The notes under the pieces are model-generated. The model was not told where the DNA came from. It worked only from the letters and a program-made list of their open reading frames with translations, and searched no databases. Shown one piece after another: positions 17,248 to 49,141 of a DNA stretch of 64,000 bases; positions within the stretch are counted from its first letter, which is position 1; each line of letters starts with the position of its first letter. The DNA is taken from contig NZ_FYED01000005.1 in assembly GCF_900187565.1 (NCBI RefSeq), positions 372,001 to 436,000 on the forward strand. Reading direction: 5' to 3'. The DNA is from Pseudomonas sp. Irchel 3A7. Its GTDB lineage: Bacteria; Pseudomonadota; Gammaproteobacteria; Pseudomonadales; Pseudomonadaceae. The translations under genes were made by a program, and so were the position numbers.

Positions 17248-17644
17248 GGGGCCGTTTAGGATTCGACGCCGGTTGCGAAACTTTAGGTGCATGCCGAGTT
17301 GGTAACAGAACTCGTAAATCCACTGTTGCAACTACTTATAGTTGCCAATGACGAAAACTACGGCCAGGAATTCGCTCTCGCTGCGTAAGCAGCCTTAGCC
17401 CTGAGCTTCTGGTACCTTCGGGTCCAGCAATCACCAGGGGATGTCTGTAAACCCAAAGTGATTGTCATATAGAACAGAATCGCCGTGCAGTACGTTGTGG
17501 ACGAAGCGGCTAAAACTTACACAACTCGCCCAAAGCACCCTGCCCGTCGGGTCGCTGAGGGTTAACTTAATAGACACGGCTACGCATGTAGTACCGACAG
17601 CGGAGTACTGGCGGACGGGGGTTCAAATCCCCCCGGCTCCACCA
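17248..17644 (+). ncRNA. ssrA: Transfer-messenger RNA (tmRNA)
   Basis: This 397-nt tmRNA gene starts GGGGCCGTTTAGGATTCGAC and ends CGGCTCCACCA, whose 5' and 3' ends pair as the acceptor stem. The T-arm GGGGGTTCAAATCCCCCC is visible near the end. The internal reading frame resumes at GCC 17344 and ends TAA 17386-17388. It encodes the proteolysis tag ANDENYGQEFALAA, with the ALAA C-terminus recognised by ClpXP and ClpAP. With SmpB (7349) it rescues stalled ribosomes. The CCA end is encoded. A strong terminator follows at once. Confidence 0.98.
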
Positions 17645-35574: not shown

Positions 35575-36477
35575 TTACATCTTGAAATCTGCACCTGGCA
35601 CACGCTGAACGCCTTTCAATGAGTTCTCGGTAAGCACGAACAACTCTCGTATATGAGCCACTAAAAACGTCCAGAAATCCGGATCATTTACGGTCTGTGT
35701 CACTAACTCACGCGGGAGGAATCGGCTCATTTCCTTTCGAAAGTCGACAACGATTTTCGGATCAGCGTCCAGCAACATGGAACGCTCCTTGAACAGGCTC
35801 AAGAACTCACTCTGGTCGCTGTGGTGATCACCCAGTTTTTTTGTAATCAGTTCAAGTTTCGGCGTGGTCCCTTGTTGACGCAACCAAACCATATCCCAGA
35901 GATCACGATTCTTGATTCTGTTAGGGCGCAACGCAAAAGCCACGATTTTGTCCACGTAGATTTCCTCTCGGGTTTCAGCCTGGAGGATCAGGCCGCTTGT
36001 ACCCATTTCTACCCCATAAGGGTTGAGTAGAAGCATTGGCTGAGGCTGGTAGCTTGGAATTGCACACACATCGATATTGATACGCTGAGGTGGAAGATCT
36101 CTACGACCTGGCCGGGTTTGCACCTTCAGCTTCCAAGTGTCGACATTTCCTGTTTCACGAACAGGTTCGCTGACCTCGACCTCAAGCCCGTATTTGATTT
36201 TCAGTGTGCTGACCAACACATGGGCAAGTTCAGTCAGGTTGTCGCGATTGAAATCCGCGCCACCGGTAAAATCCAGGTCCTCACTCAAACGGTTGGAACC
36301 ATAGCAGGCACGCAAGCAGGTACCGCCAATAAAGGTCAGCCGGGCGAGCATGCCAGCCGAACTCAGCGCCAGCATGATGTCATGGTGCAATAGCTCCTTT
36401 TCCACAACGACTCGCAATGGCGCCAGATCTTGCCTGTTTTTCAGCGCCTCATTCACCAGCTCATCAAACAAGCTCAT
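35575..36477 (-). CDS. AbiEii-type nucleotidyltransferase toxin
   Basis: This 300-aa protein of the AbiEii/nucleotidyltransferase-like toxin family is the toxic half of a type IV toxin-antitoxin, abortive-infection system. The polymerase-beta-type motif GGTCLRACYGSNRLSEDLDF (residues ~51-70) gives the GG-S-DxD metal/NTP site. A second acidic position lies in RINIDVCAIPS, and downstream EEIYVDKIVAFALRPNRIKNRDLWDMVWL is the family's conserved region. The ATG at 36477 overlaps the antitoxin gene by 14 nt. Homologues block growth by modifying tRNA, but the target here is inferred. Confidence 0.86.
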   Translation of the reverse strand: MSLFDELVNEALKNRQDLAPLRVVVEKELLHHDIMLALSSAGMLARLTFIGGTCLRACYGSNRLSEDLDFTGGADFNRDNLTELAHVLVSTLKIKYGLEVEVSEPVRETGNVDTWKLKVQTRPGRRDLPPQRINIDVCAIPSYQPQPMLLLNPYGVEMGTSGLILQAETREEIYVDKIVAFALRPNRIKNRDLWDMVWLRQQGTTPKLELITKKLGDHHSDQSEFLSLFKERSMLLDADPKIVVDFRKEMSRFLPRELVTQTVNDPDFWTFLVAHIRELFVLTENSLKGVQRVPGADFKM

Positions 36478-37033
36478 CGACAACGCTCCAATCGATCAAA
36501 TCCATGTTTCGTTTTGCGATCCTCATGTCTCGCAATGCCTGTTGTGGTGCTGCACGCCACAGTCGACAACGTGCGTCATAGTGGAGCTGTCCGACCAAAT
36601 CCTGGGCTTTCTGGCGAGTGTGTATGAATTCGATCGTGCCCCAGCGACCGCATGAGATGGTGTTGCTACGTCCGGATGACATCAGCGTGATCCAGTTGAT
36701 AGGGATCTGCGAAATAACGCCGCAATCACTCAATGCCGTTTCAAGACTGATGTAGTTGAACTGCATCGCACGTAATCTGGCGGCGGCATGAAAGAGCACC
36801 AATCCGCTGGAGGCTTGCATCCCTTCAAACAGATAAAGACCTCGACACACTCGCGTCAGATATCCTTCGGAAGCTATTCGGCTCAATAAGGTTTTATAGG
36901 CCCCCTCGGACAGATCTGGCACCAATGCCCTGAGATCGTCTGGTGTAAACAGATAGCGTTCGTCGCTGGCCAAATGAGTCAGTTTCCGGAGGAGTCTTCC
37001 CATCGGTTGATTAGACTTTGAGGACCTATGCAT
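36464..37033 (-). CDS. AbiEi-type antitoxin / transcriptional regulator
   Basis: This 189-aa protein has an N-terminal winged-helix region (LFTPDDLRALVPDLSEGAYKTLLSRIASEGYLTRVCRGLYLF) and a C-terminal domain (FNYISLETALSDCGVISQIPINWITLMSSGRSNTISCGRWGTIEFIHTR) typical of AbiEi antitoxins, which repress their own operon. It precedes and overlaps the AbiEii toxin gene, the standard order. The ATG at 37033 is preferred; an in-frame TTG at 37060 and ATG at 37003 are alternatives. Confidence 0.84.
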   Translation of the reverse strand: MHRSSKSNQPMGRLLRKLTHLASDERYLFTPDDLRALVPDLSEGAYKTLLSRIASEGYLTRVCRGLYLFEGMQASSGLVLFHAAARLRAMQFNYISLETALSDCGVISQIPINWITLMSSGRSNTISCGRWGTIEFIHTRQKAQDLVGQLHYDARCRLWRAAPQQALRDMRIAKRNMDLIDWSVVDELV

Positions 37034-37117
37034 GACCAAACACTCAACAGAAGGTTTCAATTAATGTAACTTACTGTTGAGTCAATCGAAAAGCGAACTG
37101 TATTACCGTCCTACTCA

Positions 37118-38242
37118 TCAGCGATCAAGCTCGCCCTTACCGAGCTCTCGAATATGGGACGCCAATCTAGTCTCACTTTTGCTCAAGGAAAGATTCGGAG
37201 AATTGCGCGCCTGACTCAATGACCGTTCAAGGTGTTTTTCGGCCGCCACAGCATTCCCTGCAACGAATTCCCGAAATGCGAGACAGCGGGGCCGAAGTGA
37301 AGGACAACACCAGTCGACTTCATCACTCAACAAATCGTCTCGCAGCTCTCCCGTGCGCCTTAAAAGCATGGCCTTGGAGAAACCCAACTCAATTTGCAAG
37401 ATCGAGATCAACAGTGCCAGTGACCCCAGATTGTGCGACGACGCCTCCAGCAGGGTTTGCAAATCATGGCGCTGCTGTGTGGCAGCATGCCAATCTCCCT
37501 GAATTTGCAGAGCATTCAAGCGGTACCAGATAGCAAGCAATGGTGCAGGCATCGGCTCAGACGTGAGCAACGCGATGTCGTCATCTGGTAACTCTTCACT
37601 GGGTGTCCCGGCAACAGAAAGTGCCAACAACCGCGCATTCGCAAGCATCGGAATCTGCTCCTCCTTGACCAGACACCATGCGATCAGTCCAGCACCGTCA
37701 CTGCTGCCACCCAAGTAAGTAGGAATCAGATTGGAAACCCCCATTGCAATGTTGCTGACACCGAGCGCCAACATGAACATACGCATCGTTTCCTGTGACG
37801 AAAAGCCAACACCGATGCAAAGGCACCCGACGACCAGGTTTGCCAGCGGCCCCATTACAATCATGACGATGAATTGCCGACTCATAGGCAGGCAAGGGTC
37901 AGCCGCGGCCATGATATAGCCACCCAATTTTGATCGTTTCGGCTGAGGCGACCATCGCATACGCCAACCACGCCGTAGCGGGAGCAGTTCTACCGCGGCA
38001 ACACGCACTGCCAGTACAGTCATGTGACTCCACTTCGCCCCCAGATAGTGGCCGCCTTCATGGATGCAAGTACTCAGGATGATCAATACAACGGTCAAGA
38101 CCGTCGCCCAAAGGGGAGCTAAGTCCGAATCGATGCCAATGCCGAGGATGAAGGCAGTCGCCAGCACTCCACTTACGGACACTATCGTCTGCGATAGCGA
38201 AAGCAGTTTAAACAAGCTCATTACCCATTTGTTGCCCATCAT
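37118..38242 (-). CDS. M50-type membrane zinc metalloprotease, unusual C-terminal extension
   Basis: This 374-aa integral membrane protein has a site-2-protease core. Zinc ligands H61 and H65 and catalytic E62 are in the HEGGH motif within a hydrophobic helix. A second motif NLIPTYLGGSSDGAGL provides the third ligand Asp (~residue 182) after hydrophobic segments at ~125-150. No PDZ domain is seen. The last ~180 residues are soluble and helical (tetratricopeptide-like). The ATG at 38242 is preferred to a TTG at 38314. It lies 84 nt upstream of the AbiE pair on the same strand. Target and role are unknown. Confidence 0.78.
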   Translation of the reverse strand: MMGNKWVMSLFKLLSLSQTIVSVSGVLATAFILGIGIDSDLAPLWATVLTVVLIILSTCIHEGGHYLGAKWSHMTVLAVRVAAVELLPLRRGWRMRWSPQPKRSKLGGYIMAAADPCLPMSRQFIVMIVMGPLANLVVGCLCIGVGFSSQETMRMFMLALGVSNIAMGVSNLIPTYLGGSSDGAGLIAWCLVKEEQIPMLANARLLALSVAGTPSEELPDDDIALLTSEPMPAPLLAIWYRLNALQIQGDWHAATQQRHDLQTLLEASSHNLGSLALLISILQIELGFSKAMLLRRTGELRDDLLSDEVDWCCPSLRPRCLAFREFVAGNAVAAEKHLERSLSQARNSPNLSLSKSETRLASHIRELGKGELDR

Positions 38243-38537
38243 TGAATGCTTACCGCAGTGACCGAGATAGGCCTGCGACTTTAGGTGGTGATGACCTCCA
38301 GCCTCAACCGCCAAACTGCGTAGGAACCAGGTAGGAGACGCGAAGGGAAAGTCCTACAGAAAAAACGCGAAGTGTGATGACCCATTGCAAGTACAACTTC
38401 TGGCGCTGGCTGAGTTTCGATTCGCGCGTGTACCTCGCAATGGATTCCCCCCATTGACCAGCACATGAACTTTTCTTCACCCCGCCTTAATGCCACACCC
38501 TGTACATTTCCCTCGCTCATTCAAGAAACTACGGTTT

Positions 38538-39190: not shown

Positions 39191-39281
39191 CGCGTCCTAA
39201 AGGCGATTAAAATGAGAGGAAAGATCCCACAGGTGTTTCAGGTTGTCCGTCGGAAGTCGGGGAAATAGTCTCTGGTGGTCG

Positions 39282-39488
39282 CTGAAAAATTCAGTGACCG
39301 GGTGTGAGATCCCGGCAACTCATAGTCATCCAATGCCAGTATCCGCATAATTGCCGCCAGCTTTTCCGCTGTCCGTAAATGCGTTATGGCGGCTGTGTGC
39401 GGGCAGACTTTATGTCTGGCCGGGTGCCTATGACCGGTTTTCTCACCTCGCACATAGCTGCCACCTTTTGCCGTGTGAGAAACGGCAA
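39282..39488. other. Hairpin-rich element upstream of the DUF6124 gene
   Basis: Five short perfect inverted repeats lie in about 207 nt: CTGAA/TTCAG (39282-39294), CCGGG/CCCGG (39298-39315), GCCGCCA/TGGCGGC (39353-39393), CAGAC/GTCTG (39404-39418) and TTGCCGT/ACGGCAA (39468-39488). GTGTGAGA occurs in or at the loops of the second and fifth, and its partner TCTCAC lies at 39441-39446, so loop-loop pairing is possible. A minus-strand frame (39238-39507, 89 aa) also spans it. The whole behaves like a structured leader or a short repeated element. Confidence 0.5.
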
Positions 39489-39519
39489 GAGATGGCTTCC
39501 ACCGCATAGGAGCATTGCC

Positions 39520-39792
39520 TTGGATAAGTTAATCCCCGATCCCCCCTTCGAAATCGAAAGACCCTACCGCCCAACCACATTTTTCACCGTCCTCCCCGAC
39601 ATAAAAACCGAAAACCTCCTCGCCCACGCCTGCGAGTCATTAGCCTCAGCCAACGTCATGCTCAACGACTTCGCTACCTACCTGAACGGCCCACAGCGCA
39701 ATACGGCGCTGGTCATTGCACAGATCATCATGCTGGCAGAGCTGGCGGTTAACCGTGCGCTGGATAACGTTGATCCGCAAGAGCAAGTCTGA
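39520..39792 (+). CDS. DUF6124-type small protein with TTG start
   Basis: This 90-aa helical protein is of the DUF6124 type found in many copies in Pseudomonas: LDKLIPDPPFEIERPYRPTTFFTVLPDIKTENLLAHACESLASANVMLNDFATYLNGPQRNTALVIAQIIMLAELAVNRALDNVDPQ. The family usually begins with MDKL..PDPP. Here the matching codon is TTG at 39520, preceded by AGGAG 8 nt upstream, so TTG is the likely start. The ATG at 39379 would add 47 unrelated residues read through the hairpin element. The function of the family is unknown. Confidence 0.8.
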   Translation: MDKLIPDPPFEIERPYRPTTFFTVLPDIKTENLLAHACESLASANVMLNDFATYLNGPQRNTALVIAQIIMLAELAVNRALDNVDPQEQV

Positions 39793-39809: not shown

Positions 39810-39873
39810 TTCGCGAGCAGGCTCGCTCCCACAAGGGATTGCGCTCTTCTGTGGGAGCGAGCCTGCTCGCGAA
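39810..39873. repeat. REP doublet (REPIN)
   Basis: TTCGCGAGCAGGCTCGCTCCCACA and its inverse TGTGGGAGCGAGCCTGCTCGCGAA are separated by 16 nt: a compact REPIN of the CGAGCCTGCTCG subgroup, also seen at 48139, 52292 and 58459. The rest of the 417-nt gap up to the chemoreceptor gene holds only a candidate FliA promoter. Confidence 0.93.
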
Positions 39874-40093
39874 TGCTGTCTATCAGGCAAAACGATTCAA
39901 AACACCGGGCTGGGTCTCATCCACCATCACCGACTCTTCAGCCATCTGCAGCACGGACATCGCCAACCCCATTTGATGCGTCGAGGGTAGAGGCTCGGGC
40001 GTGGGCAGGCAGTGAAACGCTTGTGAAAAAAAGCTTAAAGGCTACGTAAAAGACGCAAAAACCTTGTTACAGAATCTGCCAGACAAAATCCTT

Positions 40094-48247: not shown

Positions 48248-49141
48248 TCACACCATTTCTTTAAGAATCCACTCCACCACCGAAGTCCGCTTCGGCACCC
48301 ACCCCAACAATTCCCGCGCATGCTTGCCGCGCACCCGGCTGTTGGAACCCAAACCATAGTTGGCCATTTCATAGCCCCACTCGGCTTCGGCCTCTTTCAG
48401 CGGCCAGTCTTGCGGCTCACCCAGGTTCAGCGCCTGCGTCATGGCCGTGGTCATGTCGATGAACGACGCTTCGCCGCTTTCGACGAAGTAAAACGTGCCC
48501 GGGATGTTCCTGGTCAGCGCCAGCAGATACAGCGACACCACGTCCTCGATATGCACGTTGGACCAGATGTTCCGGCCGGTGCCAACATGACGCACCACGC
48601 CACTCTTGCGCGCCTGTTTCAGCAAGCGCGGCAATTGCACGCTGTCGCGGTTCACACCCAGGCTGTGGCCGTAGATCAGGGTGTTGCAGATGACCGCCGA
48701 GTTCACGCCGTCCTTCGCTGCGTCGAGGATCAGGTTGTCGATGGCCACGCGCGCGGCCTTGTCGACGGTCGGCTCCGGCAGGTTGTCTTCGTAGTAGATG
48801 ACATCACTGGATTTACCGCCCGAGGCATCGCCGACGATGCTCGAACCGCTGGTGTGCAGGAATACTTTGTTGGAGCCGCGCATGGCATTGAGCAGGGCCT
48901 CTACCGCACCACGATGGTCGCTGCTGGCGGCATTGATCACGGCGTCGGCGGCACCGGCCTGCTGGGTGAGTAGTGCGCTGTCGTCCAGCGTGCCGATCAC
49001 TGGCGTGATGCCCAGTGCTTTCAGCTCATCCGCTTGCTCGGTGTTGCGCACCAGGCCGGTGACGCTGTGACCGGCCTTGATCAGGCCCGTGGCGATGGAG
49101 CCGCCGATAAAACCGGCAGCGCCGGTAACGAATACGTTCAT
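48248..49141 (-). CDS. NAD-dependent epimerase/dehydratase family protein
   Basis: This 297-aa extended short-chain dehydrogenase has the Rossmann motif VTGAAGFIGGSIATGL at residues 4-19. It keeps a LHTSGSSIVGD segment, but the canonical YxxxK active site is not evident around VIYYEDN. It therefore resembles the atypical SDR/NmrA-like reductases often annotated as nucleoside-diphosphate-sugar epimerases. The ATG at 49141 begins MNVFVTGAAG; the frame upstream lacks family similarity. A LysR gene lies upstream on the same strand. Confidence 0.84.
   Translation of the reverse strand: MNVFVTGAAGFIGGSIATGLIKAGHSVTGLVRNTEQADELKALGITPVIGTLDDSALLTQQAGAADAVINAASSDHRGAVEALLNAMRGSNKVFLHTSGSSIVGDASGGKSSDVIYYEDNLPEPTVDKAARVAIDNLILDAAKDGVNSAVICNTLIYGHSLGVNRDSVQLPRLLKQARKSGVVRHVGTGRNIWSNVHIEDVVSLYLLALTRNIPGTFYFVESGEASFIDMTTAMTQALNLGEPQDWPLKEAEAEWGYEMANYGLGSNSRVRGKHARELLGWVPKRTSVVEWILKEMV

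Follow-up and report, generated by a model that had tools for sequence, protein, structure and literature searches.

A probable C4-type antisense switch, built like phage P1 immI, in front of a DUF6124 gene of Pseudomonas

Short inverted repeats with matching loops lie directly in front of a small TTG-start gene in the window (the whole 64,000-nt stretch of Pseudomonas DNA analyzed here), which raises the question of what such an array might control. An earlier note had read it as a structured leader RNA or cis-regulator of DUF6124 genes, or as a short mobile repeat with a frame of its own on the minus strand; this interpretation is partly supported. The inverted repeats are present, as are both GTGTGAGA copies (39302-39309 and 39473-39480) and the complementary TCTCAC (39441-39446) on which the note had remarked, and the gene behind the hairpins is indeed a DUF6124 gene. 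Overlooked at the time was that the array, judged by sequence, belongs to a family that already has a name, the C4 antisense RNAs known from the immunity of phages P1/P7. The matching loops can thus be read as antisense and target. In our view, the locus is probably an antisense switch of the C4 type that has the build of phage P1 immI and holds a small DUF6124 protein in the off state.

Elements of the control region and their assignment to C4 RNA

The ordered control region before the DUF6124 gene occupies 39191-39522. It comprises an a1/b1 element, the C4 RNA, and a2/b2 sites that extend into the ribosome-binding site; the downstream limit of the a1/b1-C4-a2/b2 unit is at about 39522. The features are listed below, with segment names following P1 usage.

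39243..39271, + strand: possible promoter, TTGTCC - 17 nt - TAGTCT (by eye; aligned in orthologs)
39265..39318, + strand: c4-a1b1 target element, RF03163 (Rfam sensitive scan, 46.1 bits, cut-off 46.7, E 2.9e-10)
39302..39309, + strand: a1 target GTGTGAGA in a hairpin loop, complementary to a'
39320..39325, + strand: b1 target TCATAG, complementary to b'
39382..39468, + strand: C4 antisense RNA, RF01695 (Rfam 67 bits, cut-off 45; stem covariation over 65 C4 RNAs)
39424..39433, + strand: antisense segment b' GTGCCTATGA, loop of the second C4 hairpin, predicted to pair with b2 and the Shine-Dalgarno sequence
39438..39447, + strand: antisense segment a' TTTTCTCACC, predicted to pair with a1 and a2
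39470..39486, + strand: a2 target hairpin GCCGT-GTGAGAA-ACGGC, with GTGTGAGA at 39473-39480
39505..39513, + strand: b2 target CATAGGAGC, including the Shine-Dalgarno sequence AGGAG (39508-39512), predicted to pair with b'
39520..39792, + strand: DUF6124 gene, 90 aa, TTG start (PF19619, 86.8 bits, cut-off 27)
39520..39639, + strand: C-rich, G-poor gene start (C 0.40, G 0.13 by base composition), proposed Rho-loading region

The match to RF01695 scores above the curated cut-off (67 bits vs 45), and the stems of the family covary, the test that the earlier note had proposed. A MAFFT alignment was made of 65 C4 RNAs drawn from four genomes, with all 18 of the home genome and, among 93 others, every second one; in it, 21 of the 27 stem pairs carry two-sided changes, with 189 such cells vs 48.2 in shuffles; covariation over the Rfam structure reached 0.430, compared with 0.220 after shuffling and at most 0.146 for slid partners. 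The second inner C4 hairpin was paired in only 59.1% of cells of this alignment, in part because its variable loop is visibly misaligned. The score of the window for RF03163 (46.1 bits) falls just below the cut-off of 46.7; among 11 aligned orthologs, seven are above it (L186, L187, L188, L189, L191, L193, and L194) and the element is not listed in L183, L184, L190, and L192. The antisense segments are complementary to a2 and b2, and b2 lies in the ribosome-binding site: b' GTGCCTATGA matches TCATAG of b1 upstream as well as CATAGG within CATAGGAGC of b2 downstream, and TCTCAC (39441-39446) is part of a'. Taken by sequence, the a1/b1-C4-a2/b2 architecture and its pairing are well supported. 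The leader is also unusually stable in prediction, since 39278-39530 (253 nt) folds at -105.5 kcal/mol vs a mean of -79.3 (sd 5.1) in 200 dinucleotide shuffles (z -5.1), none of which was as low. The possible promoter at 39243..39271 is absent from the list of a consensus scan, which was stricter than reading by eye.

C4 is a proven antisense RNA in P1/P7 (PMC12197685, excerpt), where its function is also treated in PMC8198154. Weinberg et al., 2010 (PMC2864571) list both C4 and c4-a1b1, assigning them to Proteobacteria or gamma-Proteobacteria and to phages. The P1 record has the order promoters, a1, b1, C4 (48343-48419), a2 (48423-48429), b2 (48452-48459), and icd start (48470). P1/P7 immI (RF01695, RF03163) and the window thus have in common the RNA family, the a1/b1 - C4 - a2/b2 order, the spacing (in P1, C4 ends 51 nt before the start of icd; in the window, the equivalent CCACC end at 39465 lies 55 nt before the start codon), and, for P1, the location of b2 at the ribosome-binding site. 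They differ in what follows: icd/ant comes after C4 in P1, whereas the window has DUF6124 there and no icd/ant. Moreover, unlike P1/P7 immI, the type described here is chromosomal, with 18 copies in the home genome and mostly private pairing codes.

The minus-strand frame 39238-39507, raised earlier as the possible frame of a mobile repeat, is open in the window; it was rejected as a conserved gene, as in-frame stops occur in each of the 11 orthologous regions that were aligned. In 9 of these the net change in length would shift the frame, not being a multiple of three. Pfam gave no match for the frame, and in ten of the 11 orthologs substitution rates by its codon position (0.195, 0.146, and 0.212) show no clear third-position excess. 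L194 is the most diverged of the 11, and by eye its a' segment and its a sites alike depart from those of the others. Directly after the DUF6124 stop lies a long inverted repeat (39812-39871, GCGAGCAGGCTCGCTCCCACA...), which we take to resemble a Pseudomonas REP/REPIN element; similar pieces occur in L302 and L303.

Pairing within and between cassettes

Duplex energies were computed for the antisense segments of each C4 against the targets of every cassette, with 111 cassettes from four genomes (18, 41, 30, and 22), a set that leaves out two second members of tandem C4 pairs. Within a genome, the summed a2+b2 energy was lowest (ties allowed) for the cassette's own targets in 17/18, 33/41, 25/30, and 17/22 cases, 92/111 in all, and none of 5000 permutations was as low in any genome. 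The remaining 19 cassettes pair better with the downstream targets of another cassette. Own-best pairing was less frequent for the upstream a1/b1 targets (12/18, 24/41, 18/30, and 11/22, altogether 65/111; 0/5000 permutations), and own downstream targets were best in 60 of the 111 when cassettes were pooled across genomes. The tighter pairing segments used here were picked after the result with wider segments had been seen; with the latter, a2+b2 was own-best in 13/18, 12/41, 9/30, and 8/22, at 0/10000 permutations except for a1 in two genomes (14 and 1 of 10000), and a still earlier version of the pairing gave 15/18 for the home genome. Since, within a genome, the majority of cassettes carry a pairing code of their own, they would be largely insulated from one another.

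A script found an ORF start (of at least 35 aa) beside the downstream duplex in 97 of the 111 cassettes, and in 79 of these the duplex covers at least 3 bases of a Shine-Dalgarno-like motif. The starts in L013, L133, and L134 are doubtful, and the other 14 cassettes were inspected singly in part. L013 (home genome, C7:295410-295495, - strand) is a C4 RNA without downstream a2/b2 and with a DUF6124 start 20 nt away, possibly an escaped cassette.

Pairing loops diverge faster than the coding sequence. In 48 paralog pairs (at least 75% protein identity), coding identity averaged 0.84, while the loop that pairs with the Shine-Dalgarno sequence had an identity of 0.56, against 0.50 for random loops; own duplexes were at -13.3 kcal/mol vs -7.6 for crossed ones. 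Identity was 0.82 for the a' segment and 0.78 for the C4 scaffold. Because the scaffold differs as well, exchange of whole leaders is possible besides fast change. One pair (L103/L113) has kept the same loop, and the paralogs L111/L112 and L097/L123 still cross-pair.

Distribution of the cassettes and their target proteins

The window cassette is one of many. In the home genome, C4 was matched 18 times, each time above cut-off, and DUF6124 15 times, ten of these within 600 nt downstream of a C4. Of 99 genomes of the genus, 92 contain C4 (in 91 of them above cut-off), and 58 have at least 10 matches, with up to 39 candidates scored per genome. Six genomes chosen for re-scoring as single-contig, four of them rich in C4, have 41, 30, 24, 25, 10, and 9 matches. 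A DUF6124/DUF3077 match lies at most 600 nt downstream on the same strand for 97 of these 139 C4 matches, one of which is below cut-off (per genome 36/41, 18/30, 8/24, 24/25, 3/10, and 8/9); when placement was random, 1000 trials gave 0.16 such links on average and never more than 2. Conversely, C4 lies upstream of 99 of the 122 DUF6124/DUF3077 genes in the six genomes, which shows that the suggestion of a structured leader or cis-regulator of DUF6124 genes had been right in kind. A similar region before other DUF6124 genes, for which the earlier note had asked, was also found on named Pseudomonas contigs: a C4 scoring above cut-off precedes 76 of 80 DUF6124 loci, which are the best 80 of 497 confirmed and were in part seeded with the PxPP motif. 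L197, L204, and L243 retain a1/b1 and the Shine-Dalgarno sequence without C4, and L224 lacks the entire RNA part. Tandem C4 pairs, 64 and 80 nt apart, were seen at G061:C1:868644-868881 and 1136623-1136875.

In the order, DUF6124 was found in 5 of 293 genomes, all five of the same genus, and C4 in 62 of 398 genomes of the phylum under stricter filters. This is a known RNA family in a new setting, that of chromosome-amplified, largely insulated phage-type antisense switches with DUF6124/DUF3077 targets. Our literature search, which lay mostly within open papers and was judged from listings, found no paper on a spread of C4 through Pseudomonas chromosomes with such targets; likewise it found none on DUF6124 in mostly open papers and none on C4 RNA together with putida. 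The sole paper found on DUF3077 concerns, in the part available, a furfural-tolerance mutation.

The 18 cassettes of the home genome precede genes for DUF6124 (10), DUF3077 (2), proteins without a significant Pfam match (4: L007, L008, L017, and L018), a Bro-N antirepressor-type protein (L001), and another small protein (L006). DUF6124 and DUF3077 models match the same places in several cases. A common ancestry of DUF6124, DUF3077, and the no-Pfam class was considered; profile comparisons were weak (nominal E 0.014, 0.065, and 0.0058; probabilities 3.2, 0.8, and 6.3%). In two DUF3077 cassettes (L003 and L156), a short extra ORF occupies the C4-controlled start and DUF3077 comes second, a layout that recalls orf45-anrP of Gifsy-1.

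The structural model of the window DUF6124 protein (mean pLDDT 78.5) has a disordered, low-confidence N-terminal third (1-29) and a two-helix hairpin (30-52 and 58-84), and is predicted to be soluble. NCBIfam, PHROGs, and PADLOC gave no match for the protein, a sequence search of solved structures gave one match only (E 0.59), and the viral fold library gave none for the model at E <=0.001. Fold matches in the PDB were helical hairpins of many kinds, the best being ferritin-like EncB (Z 9.7, rmsd 1.3, 61 aligned); as the model is helical, these are not informative. Since such cassettes are also found on contigs of prophage-like kind, some of them next to repressor or tail genes (see below), we guess that DUF6124 might be an antirepressor-like or other interaction protein of phage origin.

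The gene start, the proposed switch, and competing explanations

We propose a single transcript that would begin ahead of the a1/b1 hairpins, include C4, and continue into the DUF6124 gene. C4 would fold into its covarying structure and be released as a small RNA, by analogy with P1, for which this is known. Its a' and b' segments would then pair with a2 (the hairpin loop) and b2 (the Shine-Dalgarno sequence) and so block the start of translation, and on the untranslated, C-rich and G-poor gene start Rho would stop transcription. Copies of a1/b1, whether acting in cis or, as a short RNA, in trans, may bind C4 and relieve repression, in the manner reported for IsrK. P1 C4 acts through Rho-dependent polarity, a subject on which our literature search found no paper.

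The proposed Rho step draws on the composition of the gene starts. The first 120 nt of 93 cassette ORFs average C 0.401 and G 0.178, vs 0.290 and 0.278 in the controls, for which 44 long ORFs were taken from the window (p 6.7e-18, Mann-Whitney), and the fraction of 120-nt control windows that reached the cassette mean skew was 0.000. The shift reaches synonymous codons. Among C- or G-ending codons of 90 genes (L013, L133, L134, and proteins below 70 aa left out), 364/1498 end in G in codons 2-41 vs 1395/2829 in the rest, while control genes shift little (0.454 in their starts, 304/669, vs 0.480). A repeat set of 49 C4-linked DUF6124 genes gave 138/804 vs 788/1441. Relatives without C4 (23 of 24 listed genes, one having been missed by the script) are intermediate, with 111/348 vs 365/730; these DUF6124/DUF3077 genes keep part of the G avoidance, and hence the bias is not tied to C4 alone. 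Synonymous avoidance of G in the first 40 codons suggests a Rho trap that would load Rho when C4 blocks translation, a prediction that is testable within this short stretch.

The same skew could instead arise at the protein level, through a PxPP motif, or from the ordinary low structure near start codons, an account that we consider plausible, if somewhat the less probable one. PxPP is present in 57 of the 93 cassette ORFs and in 1 of 20 C4-less genes, and the milder bias of the C4-less relatives fits this account too. Against it, the 36 ORFs without the motif are also biased (C 0.381, G 0.199), synonymous codons shift where those of control genes hardly do, and P1 icd has a skew of the same sign (C 0.29, G 0.16; top 3.8% of windows in a 30-kb stretch). 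The start motif of the window protein, MxKxxPxPP (39520-39546), recurs in DUF6124 proteins and in the otherwise different L018, L155, and one Bro-N protein, L169; it may be a by-product of C-rich codons.

A second question is whether a separate antisense RNA exists at all, or whether pairing takes place within one mRNA only, as in an ordinary cis-acting leader of the riboswitch or attenuator kind. In the predicted fold of the full leader of the window, a1/b1 does pair with C4, and the silent structure of IsrK in Salmonella prophage Gifsy-1 is of the same kind (PMC4825925, excerpt). A purely cis-acting leader nevertheless seems unlikely to us, given that the window matches C4, which in P1/P7 is proven to act as an antisense RNA (PMC12197685, excerpt), and does so with both target pairs, and given that the scan of the window found no terminator or attenuator before C4. 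According to the accessible text of PMC4825925, IsrK is a short terminated leader RNA that activates translation of its own read-through mRNA, and its authors liken it to the CI RNA of phage P4. IsrK-orf45-anrP (RF01394; PMC4825925, excerpt) resembles the cassettes in having a leader RNA before a C4-like segment. The IsrK model indeed has 48 matches in seven genomes, 47 of them directly before C4, with only two above cut-off, and it passes the cut-off also in L236 and L250. The window, by contrast, scores 24.6 bits vs a cut-off of 50 and has no terminator before C4, so that it does not qualify as IsrK. A terminator-like site before C4 is found in 15/111 cassettes vs 16/555 shuffles, with the site of L009 further upstream than the other 14. 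The low IsrK score and the scarcity of terminators also weigh against the proposed switch, as do the a1/b1 score of the window just below cut-off, the 19 cassettes that pair better elsewhere, the lower own-best count for upstream targets, the lost downstream targets of L013, and the G avoidance that C4-less genes retain in part. P4 CI RNA with seqA/seqC is alike in being an antisense RNA processed from the transcript it controls, with sites on both sides (PMC4825925, excerpt); it differs in acting by transcription termination of replication genes, and the likeness drawn here is one of published description.

Cassettes of the antisense type might also be prophage remnants, what is left of phage immunity regions that integration has scattered and that have lost their function. 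Relatives of the target genes occur on IMG/VR contigs (DUF6124 on 17, DUF3077 on 42), and a sense C4 lies upstream in 18 of 20 scanned contigs (14 of the 17 with DUF6124 and 6 of the 42 with DUF3077), the exceptions being L308, with C4 on the other strand only, and L325, without C4. Some cassettes adjoin phage genes: in L312 the cassette has genes for Abi_C and a tail assembly chaperone nearby, and in L339 genes for an XRE-type repressor and Ogr/Delta come after it. Among 50,697 records of named phages, DUF6124 was found once and DUF3077 and the no-Pfam class not at all, and DUF6124 was in none of 72,556 plasmid records.

The site in the window is lineage-specific. Its cassette is flanked by GNAT and chemotaxis-receptor genes, which eight relatives have in the same order, 1.8-3.4 kb apart; reading 1.5-kb flanks on each side, we found no DUF6124 between them in any of the eight, the middle 0.3-0.4 kb being outside these flanks in five. 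Similarity to the relatives stops where the GNAT gene ends and picks up again near 39971. Another DUF6124 match lies upstream of the GNAT gene in 3/8 relatives and downstream of the receptor gene in 1/8. The absence at this site in 8/8 relatives and the many dispersed copies are compatible with horizontal exchange. The frame that the earlier note had given to a short mobile repeat is broken in 11/11 orthologs, and no mobility gene or terminal repeat was seen at the cassette in an informal inspection.

Lineage specificity, the prophage-type contigs, and some losses and fragments of C4 or target are what inert remnants would leave behind. Yet pairing has been kept despite sequence divergence, the stems covary, the synonymous codon bias is present, and frames are mostly open (no internal stops in 98 matches); we therefore find it rather improbable that the cassettes are mere debris. 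Equally improbable is a type I toxin-antitoxin-like unit with DUF6124 as toxin and C4 as RNA antitoxin, for which the recurrence of an antisense RNA before a small multicopy gene, and the inhibition of cell division by P1 icd in the same position (PMC8198154, excerpt), would speak, and against which stand the lack of a PADLOC match and the predicted soluble two-helix hairpin.

For the C4-type antisense switch itself, we can offer one wider reading, to which we give little credence at present. Up to about forty insulated antisense switches per Pseudomonas chromosome, each with its own code and with specificities kept apart by selection after each duplication, might form a host-owned sensor array made from phage parts; a phage that disturbs shared weak points, or brings a matching decoy, would release the small helical proteins. 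Were this so, the weak points would be C4 processing, Rho, and decoy a1/b1 RNAs, and an invading phage would release one or many such proteins. With the proposed switch, the DUF6124/DUF3077 proteins would gain a defined control, and dozens of parallel antisense pairs per cell offer a model for how RNA specificities stay apart after gene duplication.

Elsewhere in the window, a tmRNA gene lies at 17248-17644 (+ strand, Rfam 204.8 bits), and an AbiEi-type antitoxin gene (36464-37060, - strand, PADLOC 216 bits) adjoins a peptidase M50-type gene (37118-38314, - strand, Pfam 32.9 bits).
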